NCBI GenBank assembly: GCA_002712305.1
Contig: PATE01000089.1
Location: 1-10,569, forward strand
From: Gemmatimonadota bacterium
GTDB lineage: Bacteria; Latescibacterota; UBA2968; UBA8231
Direction: 5' to 3'
DNA length: 10,569 nt
Shown here: piece by piece, positions 1 to 10,463 of the stretch
Layout of the letters: each line of letters opens with the position of its first letter
Numbering within the stretch: the first letter of the stretch is position 1
The notes under the pieces: generated by a model
The model's database searches: none
What the model was told of the DNA's origin: nothing
Seen by the model: the letters and a program-made list of their open reading frames with translations, nothing else
Made by a program: the position numbers and the translations under genes

Positions 1-554
1 ATATTTTTCCAATCCCAACCTCTCCAAATGTCTTCGTCATTTTCCTCACATATCTCAATACATTTACCATTTTTCCAAATGTCTTCGTCAATTACGTTTT
101 CTTCTTTGTCATAGTAAATCCACTTCCCGTCTTGTTCCCCATCTTTATAATTTCCTTCTTCATACACCTTCCCGCTTTTGTAATACCTAACAAACTTACC
201 CTCCCTCTTCCCATTAACATAGTTTACTTCATACGCTACCTTCCCAGTAGCGTAATACTTCTTGTAGAAACCTTCAGTAGCCCTTTCAAGGCGGATTAGT
301 CCAGCAAGACAATCAGCATCGACAGATGTGCCACCGTAGCCGTAGTCTATTACTAAGCCATTGGCGCCACTTTTTTCGAAAAGCAGAGCATCTTCCTCGG
401 TATCCCAACCTCTGCGCCGAATTACTTCTTTCAGCTCTTCTACATGATCGTCAGCGACATCTCCACACACTGCCCGCTCTTCGTCCGTGATGCAACATCC
501 AGCTGCCTCCCTCCATCCGAGAGGATCTCCACACCCTGCTCCCCAACCCACCAT
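1..554 (-). CDS. MORN-repeat (YwqK-like) protein, partial at left edge
   Basis: Open frame from ATG at 554 running off the left edge; 184 codons are visible and the stop lies outside the window. Residues about 95-165 hold MORN-variant repeats with the typical G-K-x-x-Y-E ... NGKREGKFxxYY and YKDGEQDGKWIYYD pattern, as in YwqK-family proteins, often labelled antitoxins. A WKNGKC element follows, and then a 17-residue tandem repeat beginning DEDIW. The first ~90 residues match no family I recognise. They hold cysteines at 8, 20, 21, 30 and 82 and a GLVIDYGYGG stretch. No signal peptide is apparent. The GC-rich first ~190 bp (about 60% GC) give way to AT-rich repeats (about 35% GC at the left edge), so the gene may be chimeric or horizontally derived. 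There is no good Shine-Dalgarno before the ATG. MORN repeats usually mediate binding or scaffolding; no catalytic role can be assigned. The repeat call is solid, the function unknown. Confidence 0.75.
   Translation of the reverse strand, partial: MVGWGAGCGDPLGWREAAGCCITDEERAVCGDVADDHVEELKEVIRRRGWDTEEDALLFEKSGANGLVIDYGYGGTSVDADCLAGLIRLERATEGFYKKYYATGKVAYEVNYVNGKREGKFVRYYKSGKVYEEGNYKDGEQDGKWIYYDKEENVIDEDIWKNGKCIEICEENDEDIWRGWDWKN
23..90 (-). repeat. 51-bp-period tandem repeat inside the MORN gene
   Basis: A 17-base perfect direct repeat (plus strand TCCAAATGTCTTCGTCA) occurs at 23-39 and 74-90. The period is 51 bp, exactly 17 codons, so both copies encode DEDIW in the same frame of the minus-strand gene. 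The first copy reads DEDIWKNGKCIEICEEN and the second starts DEDIWRGWDWKN. In-frame spacing suggests duplication of a coding module rather than a non-coding repeat. Confidence 0.8.
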
Positions 555-1044: not shown

Positions 1045-2013
1045 CTACCTCCCGTACACCGCCTGAATACAAGCCCGGATATACCCCGTCGCCAGCGCAT
1101 GCCCCGCTCGCGCCATGGCATCGTCCCCTGGAATCGATGGCGTATGATCCATCATGAAGGGTCCCTCGAAGCCAACGGCCTTGTAGATCTGCATAGCCTT
1201 GAGCATGTCCACGTCACCCTCGTCGACGAAGACCTCCTCGAAATACTTGCCCGTGCCCTTCACATTACGAAAGTGGACATAGACGATCTTTTCCTGTGAG
1301 CCGATCCGCCGGATCCCCTCATACACATCGTCGTTCTCCATCTCTGTCACACAGCCCTGGCAGAACAACATGGCATTGGACGAACTCGGGGCAAGCGAGA
1401 AGATGCGCTCGTATTGATCGAGGGTGGACACGATGCGGGCAGCGCCGCCCATGGCCTCGGGAATCGGCGGATCATCCGGATGAAGTGCCATCCGCACACC
1501 ACACTCCTCGGCGACAGGAATCACACGCGTGAGGAAGTATTCGATGTTCGCCCACATGGACGCCTCATCGATCTGTTTGTCGGGATACTCCTTCGGCGTA
1601 CGCTCCCACTCCTCGTAATCGAAGGTTGAGTACTTCGCACCGCCTCGACCAGTCGCCGATGTCGTGCGGAAGTTGCCGATGGGCTTGAAGTTGTACCCGA
1701 GCGTGGGCACACCGGCATCCCCCATGGCCCGTAACATCTCACACCACTGCTCGATCTTTTCGTCACGCTCGGGTTGTGCCAGCGTGACCGTATCGGGGCC
1801 AGACAGGGCGATGTTTGTGAAGACGAGACCGTGATTCTCTGCCTGTCTACGCACGTCCTTGAGATAGTCCGCCATCTCGGCACGTGTCTGCAGATCTCCG
1901 TGATGACCGAATGGCGGCGGATAGATCGTCAGGTCGTCGACACCGATGGCTCGATAGAACGCGAGATTCTCGTCGGTGAGATGAGCATGATTTACCTGAT
2001 CCTGGATCCTCAT
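1045..2013 (-). CDS. uxuA: Mannonate dehydratase-like TIM-barrel enzyme (UxuA family)
   Basis: 322 residues, last gene of the operon. UxuA enzymes dehydrate D-mannonate to 2-keto-3-deoxygluconate in hexuronate breakdown, in the cytoplasm, using a divalent metal. Family landmarks are present in order: YNFKPIGNFRT (107-117), MALHPDDPP (175-183), FCQGC (217-221), YVHFRNV (245-251), EVFVDEGDVDM (260-270) and GPFMMDH (284-290). His178, Cys218, His247 and Asp289 fit the metal-binding set known for this family. The segment usually reading R/K-PDHG is MMDHTP here, and the N terminus lacks the WYG-type opening of classical UxuA, so this is a divergent, shorter subgroup whose substrate may not be mannonate. 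Start ATG at 2013 lies 9 nt after the oxidoreductase stop with no good Shine-Dalgarno, suggesting translational coupling. A general xylose-isomerase-like epimerase or dehydratase is the alternative. Confidence 0.85.
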   Translation of the reverse strand: MRIQDQVNHAHLTDENLAFYRAIGVDDLTIYPPPFGHHGDLQTRAEMADYLKDVRRQAENHGLVFTNIALSGPDTVTLAQPERDEKIEQWCEMLRAMGDAGVPTLGYNFKPIGNFRTTSATGRGGAKYSTFDYEEWERTPKEYPDKQIDEASMWANIEYFLTRVIPVAEECGVRMALHPDDPPIPEAMGGAARIVSTLDQYERIFSLAPSSSNAMLFCQGCVTEMENDDVYEGIRRIGSQEKIVYVHFRNVKGTGKYFEEVFVDEGDVDMLKAMQIYKAVGFEGPFMMDHTPSIPGDDAMARAGHALATGYIRACIQAVYGR

Positions 2014-2022
2014 GGTCGCGCT

Positions 2023-3117
2023 CTACTTGTCGTCCTTCATCCAACTCATTCCCTCGCCCCGCACCAGGAACGAACGTTCATCCCACCAACCCGGACGTTC
2101 CACGGGAATGCGCCCCTCCTCGACGGCCACATCCAAAGGATTCGCTCGTGTCTGCAGGGGTAACTGCACGCGTTCGTGAACTCTGGCCGACTCATAGACG
2201 GCCATCATGATCTCGAGAGCCGCCTTGCCCTTCTCTCCGTTCCCCCTGTAGTCCTCAACCTTCCCTTCGATCCACTCACAGATCCCATAGGCCTGATGGA
2301 CGAAGGCATTGCCATAACCCGTGTCTTCTTTGTCAGGCGGATCGAAGACCTGCCAGCCAGCCTTGTCTTCCGTCATGTATTTGAGACTGTTCCCCTGCAC
2401 ATCCATCATGCCCTTCGTCCCATAGAGCAGGGCGCCGACCATGTATTTACCTGACAGTTCGTTCTCGATGACGCCCGTAGCGCCGTTGGCATAACCGATC
2501 AAACCGCAGCATCGGTCTTCGACGCGATGGCCGAAGATGTGATGGTCCGTCTTGCGCTCCACAGAGCCCATCACCCACTCGGCCGGACAGTCGCTCATGG
2601 CATACGCCTGAAAATCGATCCCATGGGTTCCCGTGTTCATCATGCCCGCACGCACGCCGGTCCAGAGTCGTTCAACCTCACCGATCGCCCCATCGGCGAT
2701 CAGGCGGCGTGCCTCTGTCCACGAGCTGAAGAAGCGGCGCTGGTGTCCGATGGCTAGCTTCACATCATTGCGTTTGCAGGCGATGATCATCGCCTCTCCC
2801 TCTCCCAGGGAGATGGCCATCGGCTTTTCCGTCAGTATGACCTTTGGACGATACGCGGCGGCAGCGACGGTCATCTCAGCGTGCTGCGGATCCCACGAAC
2901 AGACGCTGACGATGTCGAGATTCTCCTTCTCCATCATTTCTCGATAGTCGAGATAGGTCGACTTCACATTGAAGTCCTGAGCGTAGGAGGCGAGAGCTTC
3001 TGGATGTGAATCGGCGCACGCGACGATATCCGTGTGCTCACACTCCGCCCAACCGCGACCGTGTTCGCGGGCAATCCGCCCAGAGGCGATGACGCCAACG
3101 CGATACTTGGGTGCCAT
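2023..3117 (-). CDS. Gfo/Idh/MocA-family NAD(P)-dependent sugar oxidoreductase
   Basis: 364 residues. The family oxidises or reduces hydroxyl groups of sugars and cyclitols (for example myo-inositol, glucose, sugar acids) with NAD(P) in the cytosol. The N-terminal Rossmann fold starts with RVGVIASGRIA (6-16), a variant of the GxGxxG loop, followed by acidic residues near 30-36. The signature EKP is at 97-99; Lys98 is the usual catalytic lysine. GHQRRF at 124-129 and a MNTGTHGIDF segment at 160-169, with His165 and Asp168, align with the family's catalytic D-x-x-x-H region. The C-terminal half is the alpha/beta substrate and oligomerisation domain. ATG at 3117 is supported by AGGAAGGA seven bases upstream. 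The gene sits 37 bp after the Ldh_2 gene and 9 bp before the dehydratase, consistent with one pathway. The exact substrate cannot be read from sequence. Confidence 0.92.
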   Translation of the reverse strand: MAPKYRVGVIASGRIAREHGRGWAECEHTDIVACADSHPEALASYAQDFNVKSTYLDYREMMEKENLDIVSVCSWDPQHAEMTVAAAAYRPKVILTEKPMAISLGEGEAMIIACKRNDVKLAIGHQRRFFSSWTEARRLIADGAIGEVERLWTGVRAGMMNTGTHGIDFQAYAMSDCPAEWVMGSVERKTDHHIFGHRVEDRCCGLIGYANGATGVIENELSGKYMVGALLYGTKGMMDVQGNSLKYMTEDKAGWQVFDPPDKEDTGYGNAFVHQAYGICEWIEGKVEDYRGNGEKGKAALEIMMAVYESARVHERVQLPLQTRANPLDVAVEEGRIPVERPGWWDERSFLVRGEGMSWMKDDK

Positions 3118-3124
3118 GAAGAGA

Positions 3125-3132
3125 TCCTTCCT
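3125..3132 (-). promoter_or_regulatory. Strong ribosome-binding site of the Gfo/Idh/MocA gene
   Basis: AGGAAGGA on the minus strand, seven bases before the ATG at 3117. It fixes the start of this gene and lies in the 37-bp gap after the upstream stop codon, with no room for a separate promoter. Confidence 0.8.
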
Positions 3133-3154
3133 ATGGATGCCTTTGATTCAGCTG

Positions 3155-4156
3155 CTAAAACCGGCTGTCTTCGAACTCGGCGAAGGAAACCTGCACACCG
3201 CACTCATCTGCGTGCCCTTCGAGATATTCCCGCTGCTCGTCGCTGACGATGATGCCCAACTGTTTCGCCTCCGCTTCCCATGCCCACTCCATGCCACCCG
3301 CCAATTCGGCCCGTTCCATACCGGGCAGGGGTTTCGTCGCCCGCGCTTCACCGATGTATCGATCCATCTCGGCCTTGAAGGCAGCTACATCGGCAAAGTG
3401 AGCCACATTCCAGGCGGTCAGATGTGAACCTTGGTTCGATTCCCAACGGCTCGCGGGTGGCTTCACCTCAGGCCGATAGATGCCGGCGAAGATTCCACCG
3501 AGACTCACGATCACCGCGCCGAGACCGAGGCCCTTGAAGACCGCCCCGGGCGAGTGCTCCATGTTCTGCTCCGACGCAGAGACCATGTGGCCTCCCATGT
3601 CGAGCACGATAGGCGGCTGCTTGTCTGCGGGAATTGCGAAACTGATGGGCGAACTTGCCGCGGCGCTGCTCACCATCCCCTGTGGGTTTGGATAGAATCG
3701 ATGGGAAGAAGTCGACATGCCGATGCAGTCGTGTTGCAACGCCATTCGCGACCACTTTCCTGCCGAGCCGAAGTGGTAGTGGTTGTACGTCGTCACCGAC
3801 CCGACGCCGAGTCTCTTCGCCTTCTCGATCGCCATGGTCATGCCAACATGGCAGGCGATGTGTCCCAGGCCCCCATCCCCGTCGATGACGGCCGCTGCCC
3901 CACCATCACGCTCGATCTTGACCTCGGGGCGAGGATTCACAACACCGGCGCGAATCTGATTCAGATACTCTGTGAGTTTCTTGGTGCCATGGCTGTAGAC
4001 GCTCCGTTGGTCATTGGCCACCAGAAGGCCTGCCACGAGAGTTGCCGATTCGTCGTCCATGTCCACGGACAACAGCATTTCACGTACAACGTTTTCGAGA
4101 TATGCCGCGGGCACGCGAATTCCATGCTCGGGCGGGTAGTTACGGAACTTTGCCAC
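3155..4156 (-). CDS. Ldh_2-family malate/L-lactate/sulfolactate-type dehydrogenase
   Basis: 333 residues, normal for the Ldh_2 family (malate, sulfolactate, ureidoglycolate dehydrogenases and 2,3-diketo-L-gulonate reductase YiaK). These NAD(P)-dependent enzymes interconvert 2-oxo and 2-hydroxy acids and have a fold distinct from the Rossmann LDHs. Visible landmarks: YSHGTKKLTEYL (54-65) with the presumed catalytic His56; IDGDGGLGH (91-99); NHYHFGSAGKW (125-135); and PIVLDMGG (182-189) in the nucleotide-binding region. The YSHG form resembles YiaK-type sugar-acid reductases more than classical DSHG malate dehydrogenases, which fits the neighbouring sugar enzymes. The start is GTG at 4156, chosen because GAAAGGA precedes it by about four bases; an ATG overlapping at 4158 is in another frame. 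It lies 32 bp after the GH127 gene. Substrate undetermined. Confidence 0.9.
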   Translation of the reverse strand: MAKFRNYPPEHGIRVPAAYLENVVREMLLSVDMDDESATLVAGLLVANDQRSVYSHGTKKLTEYLNQIRAGVVNPRPEVKIERDGGAAAVIDGDGGLGHIACHVGMTMAIEKAKRLGVGSVTTYNHYHFGSAGKWSRMALQHDCIGMSTSSHRFYPNPQGMVSSAAASSPISFAIPADKQPPIVLDMGGHMVSASEQNMEHSPGAVFKGLGLGAVIVSLGGIFAGIYRPEVKPPASRWESNQGSHLTAWNVAHFADVAAFKAEMDRYIGEARATKPLPGMERAELAGGMEWAWEAEAKQLGIIVSDEQREYLEGHADECGVQVSFAEFEDSRF

Positions 4157-4188
4157 ATTTTCCTTTCATGGTCGGTTGGAAGGGTGAG

Positions 4189-6069
4189 TTAGCGATGCGA
4201 ACGCAGGGGATTGTCGCGCCGGAAAGCTCGGGCTCGACCTGCCTTGCGAATCGGCAACCAACTCCGATAGGGCGCCCCCCCCTCTCCGGCGCTGGCGAAA
4301 TCAACCAATCGAACTCGGCGCCCGTCGGTTCCCTGCGCCGTCATCGTCAACATCGCCGGTGCACCGTGTTTCTCAGGCGTGGCCCGACGCAGACGCAGAT
4401 CGGTCGCATCCAGAGCAGGCACATCGTCCGGGTCCATCTCGTTGTGCCGTCGATCGTAGGTCAGTAGTACGGGTCCTCGATACAGACTGACGAGCCCCTT
4501 GCATTCACGTTCACCGACCCACCAATGGGGGCGCATATCGAATTGGATCTCGACGACATCACCACGTCGCCAGCGCCTCTGTAGTGTCAGATACGAGCCG
4601 GCCTCGATGCCGCCCACCTTCTCGCCATTGACGGTGACTCGAGTACGCTCAGACCAGTAGGGAATCCTGAGGGCCAGTGAGAACTCACACACGCGCTCGG
4701 GCTGGACGGTGAGTTTCACACTACCCTCGGCCGGATACTCCGTCTCCTGCTTCAGCGTCACTTGTGTATCGTCCACCTGTGCAGAGATCGCACCCAGACC
4801 ATACCAGTTGAGCACGAGACCACCTGCCTCTTCCATCAGCGCCCAATCGGAAATCATCCCCAGGATCCGTGGGCCATTCACGCTGCAGCAATTGAGTTCA
4901 GGACTTCCCTCTCGTGCTTGGAAGACGATGTCATGAGCACTTGCCCGGCGCACACCATCCATCGGCGTGTTATACGTCACCCATCGACCCGACGCCGAGT
5001 GAAGACCGATGCCGGAGTTGATCGTCGACAGTTCAAGTTCATCTGCCACCAGCGACGATCCGGTCAAACGAAGCATGTCGATGGACATGGCTGCCCAGGC
5101 TACGGTGCAACACGTCTCGATGGCTCCCTGATGGAATGGATTGCCTTGCGCCTTTTCTGCCGAGGTAAAACCACCATTGTTATGGCGGTCCGTCTCGACG
5201 ATGCTCCACCACAGATGCTCGAAGGCAGTGCGTCCGTCCTCATTTCCATCCAGCCAGTGCAATTCGAGCATCCCCTGGATCGGATGCAGACTCTCCCAGC
5301 GAGGTTTGGGCCCTTCGAAGAAGGGAACCTCCGCCAGACCCGCCTCCAGATAGTCTCCGGCGAGAGGCTCACCATCTCGCCCCCGTGATGCAAACTCATC
5401 CTGGATCTGGCGGGCCAGTTGCAGATACTGAGCGTTGCCGGTTCGTCGATACAGAAGGCAGAGCGAATGAATGGGTGCCAGATTCATCTCGGTGCTTCCC
5501 GTATCGACGAGACGACGGCCCCGCCGTTTCTGCCCGAGGAATTTCTCGCAGAACAGGTCGCCGATCTTCTTGGCGCAGCGCAGGGCAGCTCTGTCTCCGG
5601 TGTCTTCATGCCACAGCAGCAGGCCGAGCATGATGTGGTAGTGCCCCCAGGCGTCCCAGGTCGCCCCGACCCCGCGGCGCCCACGCACGTTGTACCCCTT
5701 ACCTGTGAGCCGGTTGTCGCGATCCCACGGTCCCAGGTACCCATCCTCACCTTGAAGGGTCACCAGTTCCTGAACGAACTGGGCGGTTCGTTCATGCAGA
5801 GCTTCGTCACGCGTAAGTCGAAGGACCTGCACACAAGCCGTGATGTGTTTTCCCGCAAACTCTCCCGCCCACGGAACCATATCCCGATGCGGTTGACGAT
5901 CCCGGTCTCTGAAGATGTCGAGCATCGCCGGATTCGCAGACGGCGCGGGTAGCAACCACTGATCGGTGACCGCTCGCAGGTAGTCGGCCATGGGGCCCTG
6001 CAGATCGAACTTGGCAGTTGGTGATCGGTCGTAGACCGGTTTCAGGGTAGCACTCGCTTTGGGCATCAT
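4189..6069 (-). CDS. GH127 (DUF1680) beta-L-arabinofuranosidase-like glycoside hydrolase
   Basis: 626 residues, close to the usual 600-700 for DUF1680/GH127. Characterised members remove terminal beta-L-arabinofuranose with a zinc-bound cysteine nucleophile. An N-terminal (alpha/alpha)6 barrel is suggested by GYLGPWDRD (110-118), ATWDAWGHYHIMLGLL (136-151) and an ETCC motif at 318-321. The zinc set fits: Glu318, Cys320, and Cys394-Cys395 in ELNCCSVNGPR (391-401). Beta-sandwich regions follow (about 430-600), with LRIPYW, and a DFASAG...YRSWLP ending typical of the family. The post-cysteine loop SVNG replaces the common PPN, so it is divergent and may act on another sugar. No signal peptide: cytoplasmic. 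ATG codons at 6069 and 6066 both exist; AAGGA lies 4 or 7 bases upstream respectively, so 6066 may be the real start. It follows mmsA by 28 bp. Confidence 0.9.
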   Translation of the reverse strand: MMPKASATLKPVYDRSPTAKFDLQGPMADYLRAVTDQWLLPAPSANPAMLDIFRDRDRQPHRDMVPWAGEFAGKHITACVQVLRLTRDEALHERTAQFVQELVTLQGEDGYLGPWDRDNRLTGKGYNVRGRRGVGATWDAWGHYHIMLGLLLWHEDTGDRAALRCAKKIGDLFCEKFLGQKRRGRRLVDTGSTEMNLAPIHSLCLLYRRTGNAQYLQLARQIQDEFASRGRDGEPLAGDYLEAGLAEVPFFEGPKPRWESLHPIQGMLELHWLDGNEDGRTAFEHLWWSIVETDRHNNGGFTSAEKAQGNPFHQGAIETCCTVAWAAMSIDMLRLTGSSLVADELELSTINSGIGLHSASGRWVTYNTPMDGVRRASAHDIVFQAREGSPELNCCSVNGPRILGMISDWALMEEAGGLVLNWYGLGAISAQVDDTQVTLKQETEYPAEGSVKLTVQPERVCEFSLALRIPYWSERTRVTVNGEKVGGIEAGSYLTLQRRWRRGDVVEIQFDMRPHWWVGERECKGLVSLYRGPVLLTYDRRHNEMDPDDVPALDATDLRLRRATPEKHGAPAMLTMTAQGTDGRRVRLVDFASAGEGGAPYRSWLPIRKAGRARAFRRDNPLRSHR

Positions 6070-6073
6070 TTCA

Positions 6074-6078
6074 TCCTT
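6074..6078 (-). promoter_or_regulatory. Ribosome-binding site choosing between two adjacent GH127 ATGs
   Basis: AAGGA on the minus strand in the 28-bp gap after the dehydrogenase stop. It is four bases from ATG 6069 and seven from ATG 6066; the second spacing is more usual, so the mature protein may be one residue shorter. Confidence 0.6.
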
Positions 6079-6097
6079 GATGAGTGGCGGTGTCAGG

Positions 6098-7576
6098 TCA
6101 CAACCAACGATTCAAGACCGTTTTCTGGCGCGTGTAGAACAACACTCCCTCATGCCCCTGCACGTGGAGATCCCCATAGAAAGAATCATCCCAGCCGGTG
6201 AACGAGAACAGGGCCATCGGGGCTGGCACACCCACATTCACACCGACCATGCCACAGCTCACCTCGCGCGTGAACTGCCGTGCCGCACTGCCATCACTGG
6301 TGAAGATCGTGGCCGCATTGCCGTAGGGGATGCGATTGAGGGTATCGATCGCCTCCTGCAGGCTTTCGAGTCGCATCATGCCCAGGACCGGACCAAACAG
6401 CTCTGAGGTGAACACGTCATGGTCGGGTGTCACCCCATCCAGAAGCGTAGGTCCCACGAAGAAACCGTCATTCGGCACCCCCTCGCGGCCATCGCGGGCG
6501 ATGACCAGATCAGCAGACGCAGCGGCCGCAACGGCCTTGTTCAGGCGATCTCGAGATCCACCATCGATGACGGCCCCCATGTCGACATCCGAATCGAGTG
6601 GATCTCCGACAGTCATCGCTTCCATGGCGGACACGAGCTGATCTCGCAGAGGATCACAGTGATCGCCGATACCCATCAGCAGCGATCCGGCCATACAACG
6701 TTGACCGGCGCAACCGAAGGCCGAACTCAGCACGCCGGTCATTGCCATGTCGGCCACTATTGCCGCCCCCATGACGTCCGATTCGACGGCATCGGGCATG
6801 ACGAGGATCACGTTCTTGGCGCCACCTGCCGCCTGACATCGCTTGCCGTGTTGAGTCGATAGTTCGTAGACATGTTTGGCCACTGCCGAGGATCCAACGA
6901 AAGAGACGGCCACGATCCGAGGATGCCTACAGAGGGCATCCACCACTTCGCGCCCGCCGTGCACGATGTTGAAAACCCCGGGAGGCAGGCCTGCCTCCAC
7001 GAACAGCTCGCCCAGGCGATTCGCCGTGAGAGGCACCTTCTCGCTCGGCTTGAGCACGAAGCAGTTGCCACATGCGATGGCCACGGGGAACATCCACATG
7101 GGCACCATGGCCGGAAAATTGAAGGGCGTGATCCCCGCACAGACGCCAAGCGGTTCCCGACTCGAGAAACCGTCGATCCCATTGGCAATCTGTGGGAGAT
7201 GTTCACCCTTCGACAGATGACCAATACCGCAGGCCAGTTCGACCACCTCGATCCCCCGACGTACATCGCCGCGGGCTTCGTCCATCGTTTTGCCATTTTC
7301 CCGACAGACGATCTGCGCGAGCTCTTCAAAGTGTGCTTCGAGAAGCTCGCGATAGCGAAACAACACGCGTCCCCGATCCGGAGCCGGCGTGTTTGCCCAG
7401 TCGGGGAAGGCGGCGTGCGCGTCCTGCACAGCCATATCGACATCGACGACACCACAGTGGGGTGTGCGTGCGATGACCTCGCCCGTCCCAGGTCGATGGA
7501 CCGGCGTGAACTGCGTGACCTCCGGTTCCAGCCATTGTTCGCCCACCAGGACGGGTACGACAGATGGGGTCGTCAC
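6098..7576 (-). CDS. mmsA: CoA-acylating methylmalonate/malonate-semialdehyde dehydrogenase
   Basis: 492 residues. MmsA/IolA enzymes convert (methyl)malonate semialdehyde with CoA and NAD+ to propionyl- or acetyl-CoA plus CO2, in valine, thymine or myo-inositol degradation. Aldehyde dehydrogenase landmarks: PFNFPAMVPMWMFP (151-164), which is characteristic of the MMSDH subgroup; LKPSEK (175-180); SFVGSS (225-230); the catalytic Cys294 in AGQRCMA; ELFGPVL at 393-399; and a C-terminal SFTGWDDSFYGDL (451-463) typical of MmsA. The RENGKT motif (92-97) is also present. The segment between PDA (261-263) and SAFG is about ten residues longer than I expect for the family. Start is GTG at 7576, with GAAGGAG seven bases upstream overlapping the preceding stop. 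In an operon with sugar-acid enzymes and a Gfo/Idh protein, an IolA-like role in inositol or sugar degradation is more likely than valine catabolism. Confidence 0.93.
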   Translation of the reverse strand: MTTPSVVPVLVGEQWLEPEVTQFTPVHRPGTGEVIARTPHCGVVDVDMAVQDAHAAFPDWANTPAPDRGRVLFRYRELLEAHFEELAQIVCRENGKTMDEARGDVRRGIEVVELACGIGHLSKGEHLPQIANGIDGFSSREPLGVCAGITPFNFPAMVPMWMFPVAIACGNCFVLKPSEKVPLTANRLGELFVEAGLPPGVFNIVHGGREVVDALCRHPRIVAVSFVGSSAVAKHVYELSTQHGKRCQAAGGAKNVILVMPDAVESDVMGAAIVADMAMTGVLSSAFGCAGQRCMAGSLLMGIGDHCDPLRDQLVSAMEAMTVGDPLDSDVDMGAVIDGGSRDRLNKAVAAAASADLVIARDGREGVPNDGFFVGPTLLDGVTPDHDVFTSELFGPVLGMMRLESLQEAIDTLNRIPYGNAATIFTSDGSAARQFTREVSCGMVGVNVGVPAPMALFSFTGWDDSFYGDLHVQGHEGVLFYTRQKTVLNRWL

Positions 7577-7583
7577 GGGAATA

Positions 7584-7590
7584 CTCCTTC
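7584..7590 (-). promoter_or_regulatory. Ribosome-binding site overlapping upstream stop codon
   Basis: GAAGGAG on the minus strand, seven bases before the GTG start at 7576. Its first two bases are the last two of the TGA that ends the upstream hydrolase gene (7589-7591), so the two genes are probably translationally coupled. It also fixes the non-ATG start. Confidence 0.8.
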
Positions 7591-9652
7591 AGTCGCCTTG
7601 CAGGTGCACGACGCAGATTGCGTAGACCAATACGGGGGGAACCTCAAATTCCAGATGCGGGCCATCCTGACGGAAGTCGATCTGCGTCATGCCGTCCACC
7701 TCTGGATCGAGCCAGCGGATCTCCTCGCAGAGCCGGTCTGGCGGCAACAGGAGCTTCACGTAGATGGAGCCGGTGGGCACGGGACTCTCGCCATCCACGC
7801 CCTCTTCCTGATGGTAGTTGACCCAATGCAGCACGACCCGCTCCTCTGCCATCGCCGGACACCAAGCCCGCACACGCACCGTCCATGGCGCCTGAGTCCG
7901 CAGGCGACGTGTCTCAACGAGGGTTTCCAGATCGTTGAGGAACTGCTGAGCGAAAGGATCGGTCGCCGTGATCGGATGCACTTGGATCTGGCCGCCTGGT
8001 GTTTCGACGGGCTGCGTCCCCCAATCGTCTTTGTGCAGACTCAGAACGCGACCGCCATCGTGGATCTGCGTCGAGGGGGACGTTCCAACACCCTCCCCTG
8101 CCCCGAAAGCTGATTCGGCGCGCGGGTGACCGCCTTCGTCCATGGTCCCATTTTGGCCCGCAAGCACCAGACGTCCGTCGCACTCCTCCAGCCACCATCG
8201 CAGATGGGCCACCTCTTTGGGGGACAGGCGCTCGACCCCTGCCAGGACCAGCGTGTCATAGTCCCTCGCGCGCTCGAGAATCTGTTCGTCGAGAATCATG
8301 TCGAAGAGCCAGTGGTCGTCCTCCAGCCATCGGCCGATCTGCCGTAGGGCATCGGTGCACGTGGCGTCCCCTGCGACCTCGCCCCGCCGGGGATAGACGA
8401 TGGCCAGTTCTCCCCAGGGGTGGGCCCCACGAATCAGAGGTTCGTGGTCAGCGACAAATCGCTGATACCGATAGACCGGCTCCTTGTAGGCATCCAGGTC
8501 GAGATCGGCGGCGGCGTCGTAGTGTTCTGCCCAATGAACGGCGAGTGACGCACCGCCATGGGCGGCCATCTCGGCGATGGACAACCGATACCGCTTCCAA
8601 TCGTATTTGTTGATGATAAAGGGGCGCCCAGCTGCGGCGGCATGCAGAAACCGTGCGGGCATCCCCATGTCGGCGATGTAGCCATGCTCGACGTAGGAGA
8701 CGCCCTTCTGCGCCCCCTGACTGTACCAGATGAAATCCTCGTCCTTCGCCCAACTCGTCGAGGGCAGACGACTGCGCTCATCGTGTGGGCCGAAGTCGTA
8801 TTTGTGATACCACTGACCCAGCAACAGATCCGGCTTCAATGAGCGTGCGTAGTGCACGAACAGATCGTCGAAACCTTCCTTGCGCAGGTCGTTGGTGGCG
8901 CGCTCCAGAAGAGATCCGAATCGAGCGCGCTGATCCCTAGTGGAGGTATCTTGCGCCGTGCTCAGGTCCCCCGCCTCCTCCAGCGTATCACCACCGAACA
9001 GTGCCACCCGTTCGTCCGTGTCGAAGGCCTCTACGAGGCGTGGCCACAGGAACGCACGACAGTGTTCACACCGACATGGCGACTCGAAGTTGTGGTGAAC
9101 GTTGAGTCCATCGACACCCAGATCGATCGCCTTGCGGATCATGGGCCGGAGAATCGCCCGCCAGAGCAAATTGTTCAGACACCCTGAATAGGTTCGATAG
9201 GGCCGCCCCTCAATGGGCCATGATCTGACCATTCCCCCTTCATCGATCTGGCACGCAGCGACGGGGTCGTCACATGGAGCGTCCCCGAGCAAGTCGGGCG
9301 TCCACATGCGGGGCCATGCCTCCCACAACCCTTTTCGCGTCTCGTGGTCACCGTAGTGCCACGACACCGACATCTGCCCGATATACCGCGCACCTGCCGC
9401 CTGCACATCAGCGATTCGCGTACGAGCCTCATCGAGACACGTTTCGAGACCATACGACGGTTGTCCGGGAAACCAGCGGGTGACAGACTCGTCGTCGGCC
9501 AGGCCATAGAGCATGGGGCCAAAATTGCCCGCCTGCACGACCTGTAGCCGGCCTTCCCGAACATGCTCGGCCAGGTCGATCCGCGGTGATGGGCTCCAGT
9601 GGACGGTGACTCGCTGAAACCAGTCTTTGGTCGGTGTCATTGAGGATGGCAT
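7589..9652 (-). CDS. TIM-barrel glycoside-hydrolase-like protein (GHL6-like) with trimerisation-like domain
   Basis: 687 residues from ATG 9652 (683 if ATG 9640 is used). The N-terminal ~400 residues look like a (beta/alpha)8 barrel of the uncharacterised GHL6 type. DGLNVHHNFESPCRCEHC (181-198) carries the CxCxxC trio (Cys193, 195, 198), which follows a barrel strand in such families. A GATase-like domain as in beta-galactosidase trimerisation regions follows (about 415-505): ELAIVYPRRG, YDTLVLAGVERLSPKEVAHL and GRLVLAGQNGTMDEGGHPR segments. The C-terminal 580-687 appears beta-rich. No signal peptide: cytoplasmic. It is probably the first gene of the operon and likely acts on the same glycoside as the GH127. 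The frame is open further upstream to 9868, but that extension overlaps the divergent dioxygenase gene and is low in family-like content. The domain call is by eye, and no substrate can be named. Confidence 0.75.
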   Translation of the reverse strand: MPSSMTPTKDWFQRVTVHWSPSPRIDLAEHVREGRLQVVQAGNFGPMLYGLADDESVTRWFPGQPSYGLETCLDEARTRIADVQAAGARYIGQMSVSWHYGDHETRKGLWEAWPRMWTPDLLGDAPCDDPVAACQIDEGGMVRSWPIEGRPYRTYSGCLNNLLWRAILRPMIRKAIDLGVDGLNVHHNFESPCRCEHCRAFLWPRLVEAFDTDERVALFGGDTLEEAGDLSTAQDTSTRDQRARFGSLLERATNDLRKEGFDDLFVHYARSLKPDLLLGQWYHKYDFGPHDERSRLPSTSWAKDEDFIWYSQGAQKGVSYVEHGYIADMGMPARFLHAAAAGRPFIINKYDWKRYRLSIAEMAAHGGASLAVHWAEHYDAAADLDLDAYKEPVYRYQRFVADHEPLIRGAHPWGELAIVYPRRGEVAGDATCTDALRQIGRWLEDDHWLFDMILDEQILERARDYDTLVLAGVERLSPKEVAHLRWWLEECDGRLVLAGQNGTMDEGGHPRAESAFGAGEGVGTSPSTQIHDGGRVLSLHKDDWGTQPVETPGGQIQVHPITATDPFAQQFLNDLETLVETRRLRTQAPWTVRVRAWCPAMAEERVVLHWVNYHQEEGVDGESPVPTGSIYVKLLLPPDRLCEEIRWLDPEVDGMTQIDFRQDGPHLEFEVPPVLVYAICVVHLQGD

Positions 9653-9659
9653 CGTGGTC

Positions 9660-9687
9660 AAGATAGCGGCACCCCATAGGGGGTCAA
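9660..9687 (-). promoter_or_regulatory. Candidate sigma70-type promoter of the six-gene operon, possibly leaderless
   Basis: Minus strand: TTGACC at 9687-9682 (5 of 6 to the -35 consensus), 16 bp, then TATCTT at 9665-9660 (4 of 6 to the -10). Seven bases later is ATG 9652, so transcription would begin at or next to the start codon. No Shine-Dalgarno precedes that ATG, in agreement with a leaderless mRNA. Predicted from pattern only. Confidence 0.45.
9671..9684. promoter_or_regulatory. Inverted repeat in promoter spacer, possible operator
   Basis: ACCCC (9671-9675) and GGGGT (9680-9684) form perfect 5-bp arms around a 4-base centre. The element lies mostly between the -35 and -10 hexamers of the minus-strand candidate promoter, where a bound repressor would block polymerase. 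It is short and could be chance. Confidence 0.3.
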
Positions 9688-9721
9688 CCGCCCCTGGCGT
9701 GCATCTTCCTCTGGGGTGAGT

Positions 9722-9727
9722 TATCAT
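9722..9727 (+). promoter_or_regulatory. -10-like hexamer of the dioxygenase gene
   Basis: TATCAT (5 of 6 to TATAAT) ends seven bases before ATG 9735, mirroring the distance on the other strand. There is no convincing -35 or extended -10 element, and no Shine-Dalgarno at usable spacing, so a leaderless start is plausible but weakly supported. Confidence 0.35.
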
Positions 9728-9734
9728 TCCCGCC

Positions 9735-10463
9735 ATGTTTGGCCGACCGACTGACATCGACTGCGATCTGTGGCGGACCGACGGCGCCCTGCTCATCGAA
9801 AACGCCATCTCGGGCGATGAGTTGGCCGGACTGCGCGAGGCCTTTTCACGGTGCGCCGAACAGGCCAAACCCGACTGGCTTTCAGGCGTCAGGGCGGGTA
9901 CGAGACCTGCGGCCTTCTTCGACCTGCCCGACCCGATGGGTCTGGACGATCGTTTCCTTGAAATCGTCGATCACCCGAGTTTCTATGGCCATCTGATGGC
10001 CTTCTCTGAAGGTCAGGTCATCTTTCTCAGTCCTCAGTTCCGCACCGTGCCCGCCGCCCCTCTCAGCTATGTGGGCTGGCACTACGACGTGCATCGCGAG
10101 TCGACGCCGCTGCATATGAAGGTGCAGATCTATCTGGATGACACGAGTGACGAGGATGGCGCCTTCGGATACATCCCCGGCAGCCATCTTGAAGACTCGG
10201 GTCCCTATCCCCTCGTGCGAGATCCGGCGAGCATGCCGGGGCATCGTGTTTTTTCGGGTAGCGCCGGATCTGCCGTTCTCTTCAACAGCTACGGCATGCA
10301 CACGTCCATGGTGAATCGCTCAGGCCGAGCCCGCAGATCGATCATCCTGATCTATGAAGTCTTCAGCGAAGCGACCTTCTCGCCGGAACAGTATCAGCGT
10401 TTTTCGGAGCGACTCACGACCCCCGATCGCCGACAGCTGTTCCGGCTGGAACGACGACCGTGA
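9735..10463 (+). CDS. Phytanoyl-CoA dioxygenase (PhyH) family Fe(II)/2-oxoglutarate oxygenase
   Basis: 242 residues, at the short end for PhyH-family proteins (commonly 250-300). These enzymes hydroxylate varied small molecules using Fe(II), O2 and 2-oxoglutarate. The facial triad is visible: WHYD with His116 and Asp118, and distal His189 in SYGMHTSMVNRSG. Asn194 and Arg200 or Arg201 fit the 2-oxoglutarate-binding region that follows. GYIPGSH at 145-151 is the family's characteristic loop, and an N-terminal DGALLIENAIS (16-26) matches the usual opening strand. All key residues are present, so it is probably active. It is divergent from the sugar operon across 82 bp and overlaps the next gene by four bases, so it likely works with that amidohydrolase. 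The substrate cannot be inferred. ATG 9735 is the first start in frame after the intergenic region. Confidence 0.9.
   Translation: MFGRPTDIDCDLWRTDGALLIENAISGDELAGLREAFSRCAEQAKPDWLSGVRAGTRPAAFFDLPDPMGLDDRFLEIVDHPSFYGHLMAFSEGQVIFLSPQFRTVPAAPLSYVGWHYDVHRESTPLHMKVQIYLDDTSDEDGAFGYIPGSHLEDSGPYPLVRDPASMPGHRVFSGSAGSAVLFNSYGMHTSMVNRSGRARRSIILIYEVFSEATFSPEQYQRFSERLTTPDRRQLFRLERRP

Follow-up and report, generated by a model that had tools for sequence, protein, structure and literature searches.

The closest described counterparts of the gene cluster analysed here are the inositol (iol) operons, the uxu/yia operons of hexuronate catabolism and the Agrobacterium OGE/HYD/Gfo deglycosylation operon. The cluster consists of six intact open reading frames (ORFs) that span positions 1045-9652, all on the minus strand, of a 10,569-nucleotide stretch from a Latescibacterota bacterium (assembly GCA_002712305.1); this stretch, referred to as the window, makes up the first 10.6 kb of a 23.8-kb contig (PATE01000089.1, here C8) in a genome bin of 4.77 Mb. 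With the iol and uxu/yia operons it has in common an IolA-type dehydrogenase, a Gfo/Idh oxidoreductase and a TIM barrel, together with relatives of UxuA and Ldh_2. However, the unit has no kinase, aldolase or IolD-type gene, and its oxidoreductases fall far short of the diagnostic models, the Gfo/Idh protein reaching 104.5 bits against a cut-off of 355 for the inositol 2-dehydrogenase IolG (TIGR04380) and the Ldh_2 protein 67.7 against 316 bits for the 3-dehydro-L-gulonate 2-dehydrogenase YiaK (NF009750). An initial annotation of the window, made from the letters alone, had held that the combination fits neither an inositol nor a hexuronate operon, and this is borne out; an inositol pathway was rejected on the IolG score and the lack of iol-type partner genes. 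The Agrobacterium operon, in the part of its description available to us, likewise joins a Gfo/Idh protein to a metal-dependent TIM barrel, but that part holds no GH127, Ldh_2 or MmsA, and the barrel of the window is nearer to UxuA.

No description of this cluster was found in the open-access literature. It is a variant of known sugar-acid catabolic clusters in which several member subfamilies are uncharacterised; it is not a new type of system, and these unstudied offshoots of known enzyme families make it a good laboratory target. Bacteria of the Latescibacterota type are uncultured, and a first look at this one genome gave 25 UxuA-like, 100 Gfo/Idh and 24 Ldh_2 candidates as relatives of these genes. 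A compact, conserved cluster of defined order offers expressible proteins from which the roles and sugars of such expanded families could be learned.

A six-gene set in conserved order

The six-gene set is confirmed as real (Table 1). Its intergenic gaps, in gene order, are exactly 12, 28, 32, 37 and 9 bp, as first annotated, and Shine-Dalgarno-like sequences lie upstream of the start codons in genes 2-5. Five family assignments out of six are confirmed by Pfam (Aldedh/MmsA, GH127, Ldh_2, Gfo/Idh and UxuA); among the curated NCBIfam enzyme models only that for MmsA scored above its cut-off. Of the labels given at the outset four (MmsA, GH127, Ldh_2 and Gfo/Idh) stand, "ManD" is replaced by UxuA and "GHL6" finds no family match. 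The idea of one co-oriented unit agrees with the shared strand and conserved order, its role is probably catabolic, and the six genes do indeed include no transporter or regulator. We infer a single transcript for the six genes; a promoter and terminator scan returned no more sites than shuffled sequence and thus gives no evidence on transcription.

Table 1. Features of the cluster and of its divergent flank
Feature	Position	Strand	Basis or remark
Gene 1, GH151/GH42-like three-domain protein ("GHL6-like")	7589-9652	minus	fold and profile match
Gene 2, MmsA/IolA-type CoA-acylating semialdehyde dehydrogenase	6098-7576, GTG start	minus	TIGR01722
Gene 3, GH127-type glycosidase	4189-6069	minus	PF07944, E 4.7e-34, and PF20736
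Gene 4, Ldh_2 family NAD(P)-dependent oxidoreductase, short form	3155-4156, GTG start	minus	PF02615, E 3.6e-59
Gene 5, Gfo/Idh/MocA oxidoreductase with EKP motif	2023-3117	minus	PF01408, E 3.6e-21
Gene 6, UxuA-like metal-dependent TIM-barrel protein	1045-2013	minus	PF03786, E 7.2e-54
Divergent intergenic region, 82 bp	9653-9734		promoter-like TTGACC-16-TATCTT at 9687-9660 (minus)
PhyH-type 2-oxoglutarate dioxygenase, divergent conserved partner	9735-10463	plus	PF05721, E 8e-16

Neighbourhoods in relatives were read from a codon-scored ORF call, as a mechanical call gave antisense ORFs in this GC-rich DNA. Orthologues of the GH127 gene were present in 17 of the 64 genomes covered for the phylum. 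The sister genome of the same genus (G001) carries GH127-Ldh2-Gfo-UxuA, G002 carries MmsA-M28-GH127-Ldh2-c3-Gfo-UxuA, and G009 carries GHL6-GH127-creatininase-Ldh2-(Gfo2 antisense)-c3-Gfo-UxuA-sulfatase, an order whose parts lie on two contigs in G005. In another genus, G012 shows MmsA-GH127-creatininase-Ldh2-(Gfo2 antisense)-c3-Gfo-Gfo3-UxuA; a further contig of this genome (C99) ends within the GHL6-like gene and overlaps the start of the MmsA-GH127 contig by an exact 24 bp, across which the GHL6-like frame continues to its stop, so that G012 has all six genes in the order of the window with extra genes inserted. The core order GH127-Ldh_2-Gfo/Idh-UxuA thus recurs in three genera (g1, g2 and g5), a conservation far beyond chance. 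The four genes that the sister genome has in common with the window differ from their counterparts there by 5-13%, 2-10% and 43-50% at codon positions 1, 2 and 3, respectively, which points to purifying selection.

A neighbourhood survey had been proposed initially as a check of the unit, which lack of conservation in relatives would have refuted; its outcome is an order kept across three genera with variable content. In relatives the cluster also holds genes for a creatininase, a peptidase of family M28, a second Gfo/Idh protein, a sulfatase and an unnamed barrel protein. MmsA and the GHL6-like gene are absent from the cluster of G001, where the best MmsA copy elsewhere is only 47% identical, and both are therefore accessory. 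In genera g4, g7, g16 and g19 GH127 occurs without the other five genes; at the g4 loci (L121-L124 and L132) it lies beside a Tol-Pal-like group (ExbB/TolQ, TolB-like, OmpA and TPR/YfiO), unlike its neighbours in the window.

Enzyme families and active sites

The GHL6-like protein combines a TIM barrel, a Rossmann-like domain and a beta-sandwich, carries a CxCxxC motif after barrel strand 4 and has no evident signal peptide. It matched no Pfam or NCBIfam family, and the GHL6 model (PF14871) was absent among matches at E up to 10, a set from which filters may drop weak matches. The closest fold to its AlphaFold model (predicted local distance difference test, pLDDT, 69; predicted template modelling score 0.74) was the GH151 alpha-L-fucosidase 6tvk (Foldseek E 2.8e-23; Z 19.0, root-mean-square deviation (rmsd) 4.2, 518 aligned), tied as top match by Foldseek and VIA-align with a GH42-type beta-galactosidase (Z 18.8). 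By sequence, a profile from ten GHL6-like homologues also placed 6tvk first (E 2.3e-5), matching over the Rossmann and C-terminal domains. What had been annotated as a GHL6-like hydrolase therefore keeps a glycosidase fold, GH151/GH42-like, and loses the GHL6 label. In GH151 the nucleophile is an Asp that closes strand 4, and a Glu at strand 6 serves as acid/base (PMC10154630). In contrast, the window protein, of about 15% identity, has strand 4 of its model (182-186) ending in an invariant His186-His187 pair and then CxCxxC where GH151 has the Asp, and strand 6 shows no obvious Glu in a model of modest pLDDT viewed without residue-level superposition. The ending of strand 4 makes GH151-type catalysis by this protein doubtful.

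The GH127 protein exceeds the cut-offs for both the catalytic domain (PF07944, 118 bits) and the middle domain (PF20736, 81 bits), the arrangement of the cysteine glycosidases of GH127/GH146 such as HypBA1 and BT1003. Glu318 and Cys320 (E318-T-C320) and Cys394-Cys395 align with the Glu-x-Cys and Cys-Cys site of the GH127 structures, in which a zinc-bound cysteine is the nucleophile (PMC10728902). It differs from those enzymes in its cluster context and in a score of 124 against 950 bits, below the aceric acid hydrolase cut-off. Two glycosidase-fold proteins are thus present, as first proposed, and the sole direct hint of the methylated or arabinofuranosyl substrate then suggested is membership of GH127.

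The gene 2 product passes the TIGR01722 cut-off (553.8 against 448.5 bits), which upholds its annotation as an MmsA/IolA-type CoA-acylating dehydrogenase. Arg107 (RGIE) and Arg293-Cys294 (GQRCMA) align with five solved methylmalonate-semialdehyde dehydrogenases, including 1t90 of B. subtilis, and we take the arginines to be active-site residues. Unlike those enzymes, it is encoded among glycosidases rather than valine, inositol or beta-alanine genes, and is accessory in relatives. In g7, an M28 peptidase gene comes after the MmsA orthologues, near hydantoinase A/B; at loci L143 and L144, where an MmsA orthologue has this setting together with SDR and enolase-superfamily genes, beta-amino-acid or hydantoin catabolism is possible.

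The gene 6 product belongs to the UxuA family (PF03786, 183.3 bits against a cut-off of 23.7), which rules out an enolase-superfamily ManD; an enolase-superfamily gene does occur about 18 kb away on the same contig (L117:845-1846), outside the unit. Its model matches the UxuA structures 3ban, 1tz9 and 4eac at Z values of 29.1, 28.0 and 27.5 (3ban: Z 29.1, rmsd 2.6, 291 aligned), with the next family at 23.4. His178, Cys218, His247, Asp289 and His290, matched to the 3ban sequence, are invariant and lie at positions that we take, from the S. suis enzyme, to be those of the metal ligands (the first four) and of the catalytic histidine. However, this protein and all ten aligned close relatives lack some 30 residues of the capping insert as well as the GYGLYDR motif that bears the tyrosine, both of which are present in 1tz9 and in distant relatives. 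The protein also falls below both NCBIfam mannonate dehydratase cut-offs (NF003027, 155 against 191; TIGR00695, 101.3 against 199.55). The ManD function first assigned is thus not upheld, nor is a YiaK-like function for the Ldh_2 protein, given its score. Compared with its solved relative 1v9n, the latter lacks some 38 residues after residue 194, a length common to its relatives. The Gfo/Idh protein is 95% identical to the copy in the sister genome and 82-83% to those of g2 and g5. The families of these two proteins agree with the NAD-type oxidation proposed initially.

Candidate pathways

Our preferred reading, which we hold tentatively, is that a small glycoside or oligosaccharide is imported and then broken down in the cytoplasm by an oxidative, non-phosphorylative route that this operon encodes. 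Trimming of the substrate would fall to the GH151/GH42-like protein together with the cysteine glycosidase of GH127, and the Gfo/Idh enzyme would oxidise the sugar with NAD(P); if C1 were oxidised, the lactone might be opened by a divergently encoded Amidohydro_2 protein. The metal-dependent UxuA-like barrel would dehydrate or rearrange the oxidised sugar or sugar acid, the short Ldh_2 enzyme would interconvert a 2-hydroxy and a 2-oxo acid, and MmsA, where present, would convert a carboxy-semialdehyde product to acyl-CoA. We infer the substrate, the order of steps, the oxidation site and the product. Since the core is retained in the sister genome with no MmsA in it, the MmsA step would be an optional last one; for the same reason a simple acyl-CoA pathway was rejected. 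The initially suggested route to acetyl- or propionyl-CoA is weakened likewise, and in g7 MmsA keeps company with M28 and hydantoinase A/B.

In favour of the glycoside operon are the short gaps with their Shine-Dalgarno-like sites, the core and six-gene orders in relatives, the families with their conserved residues, the UxuA fold, the GH151 match of the GHL6-like protein and the conserved PhyH-Amidohydro_2 pair. Several observations weigh against it. No carboxylate is obvious at the end of strand 4 of the GHL6-like barrel, where the histidine pair stands, and the tyrosine found in mannonate dehydratases is missing from the UxuA-like protein. The unit has no aldolase or kinase, MmsA and the GHL6-like gene are missing from the G001 cluster and split up elsewhere, and the aminotransferase, peptidases, creatininase and PhyH nearby misfit a pure sugar route. 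As to the sugar, the sulfatase after UxuA in G009 suggests a sulfated glycan substrate, and this gene, the GH151-like fold and an apparently marine source for some relatives give a hint of sulfated sugars from algae or exopolymers; the source bacterium is probably marine. A fuller version, in which a rare sugar from a marine glycan, possibly sulfated, enters a new non-phosphorylative pathway through three uncharacterised subfamilies (the His-pair GH151-like barrel, the UxuA without tyrosine and cap, and the shortened Ldh_2) with MmsA as an optional acyl-CoA step, is speculative and on balance rather unlikely.

An alternative with a somewhat better, though still minor, chance is a 3-keto-glycoside route modelled on the Agrobacterium OGE/HYD and gut CGE systems. 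Gfo/Idh would act on the intact glycoside and oxidise its C3, beta-elimination, hydration or epimerisation would fall to the UxuA-like Mn-type barrel, and the hydrolases and sulfatase would only prepare the substrate. The UxuA-like model also matches, more loosely, the folds of AtHYD 8ro4, a 2-hydroxy-3-keto-glucal hydratase (Foldseek E 5.9e-12), and of the 3-keto-glucoside 4-epimerase YcjR (6wn6), but the true UxuA structures are much closer, as the Z scores above indicate. Sequence relatives of the Gfo/Idh protein include DgpA and aldose-aldose oxidoreductase, it matches, with scores below cut-off, the models for levoglucosan and UDP-GlcNAc 3-dehydrogenases, and several clusters hold two or three Gfo/Idh genes. 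Operons coupling Gfo with Mn TIM barrels are published (PMC10628242). Such a route would, however, leave Ldh_2 and MmsA unexplained.

We consider improbable a catabolic island for glycopeptides, for example hydroxyproline-rich glycoproteins, in which GH127 would take off beta-L-arabinofuranose, peptidases and amidases would cut the peptide, and a class-III aminotransferase with MmsA would process beta-amino-acid or semialdehyde products. A Latescibacteria genome study does ascribe GH127 to extensin breakdown (PMC4454575). An M28 peptidase gene lies between MmsA and GH127 in G002, adjoins GH127 in G015 and directly follows MmsA in g7, where hydantoinase A/B is also found; a creatininase-family gene follows GH127 in g5; M15 and class-III aminotransferase genes belong to the divergent cluster described below, and the aminotransferase lies directly 3' of GH127 in G013 and G024. 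Yet no hydroxyproline pathway genes were seen, and the Gfo-UxuA-Ldh_2 core would go unexplained. Equally improbable is a loose assemblage in which enzymes belonging to several short pathways are co-regulated and the gene content is shuffled among relatives, an arrangement that would accommodate the solitary GH127 genes, the smaller G001 cluster and a paralogous Ldh2-c3-UxuA module beside an ATP-binding cassette (ABC) transporter on contig C57, but not the strong core order in three genera or the six genes together in G012.

Wider neighbourhood

The unit is wider than six genes. The PhyH gene starts 82 bp from gene 1, and the divergent set of PhyH, Amidohydro_2, M15, class-III aminotransferase and a second PhyH is conserved in G001; the PhyH-Amidohydro_2 pair is also divergent from MmsA or the GHL6-like gene in G015 and G012. 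The Amidohydro_2 protein of the window's contig shows a weak likeness to L-fuconolactonase (E 3.5e-4), far below cut-off.

The conserved c3 protein of 422-430 residues, absent from the cluster in the window, accompanies Ldh2, Gfo or UxuA in relatives (L037:7572-8840, L039:5642-6931 and L118:7473-8765). It matched no Pfam or NCBIfam family, and a PDB search gave no believable relative. It carries a CTCxxC motif resembling that of the GHL6-like protein, and profile comparison of the two gave a weak link at the common CxCxxC stretch (hhalign probability 20, E 0.001). The paralogous module of the same genome (G000:C57:60475-63745; L118:6467-9755) encodes a UxuA 76% and an Ldh2 46% identical to those of the window. 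TPR and FG-GAP/ASPIC genes lie upstream of it, SBP_bac_5 and ABC permease genes of an oligopeptide-type transporter lie downstream, and the order from TPR to UxuA is kept in UBA8231 (L038) and G001 (L156).

At the start of the window, a MORN_2-repeat ORF (3-554, minus strand) is truncated by the contig start and does not adjoin the cluster in relatives. Twelve bacterial microcompartment (BMC) shell domain matches lie on contig C11 (G000:C11:14481-20938) and one each on C86 and C101, without a link to this cluster; a microcompartment for fucose and rhamnose use has reportedly been found in Latescibacteria, with which the matches fit.

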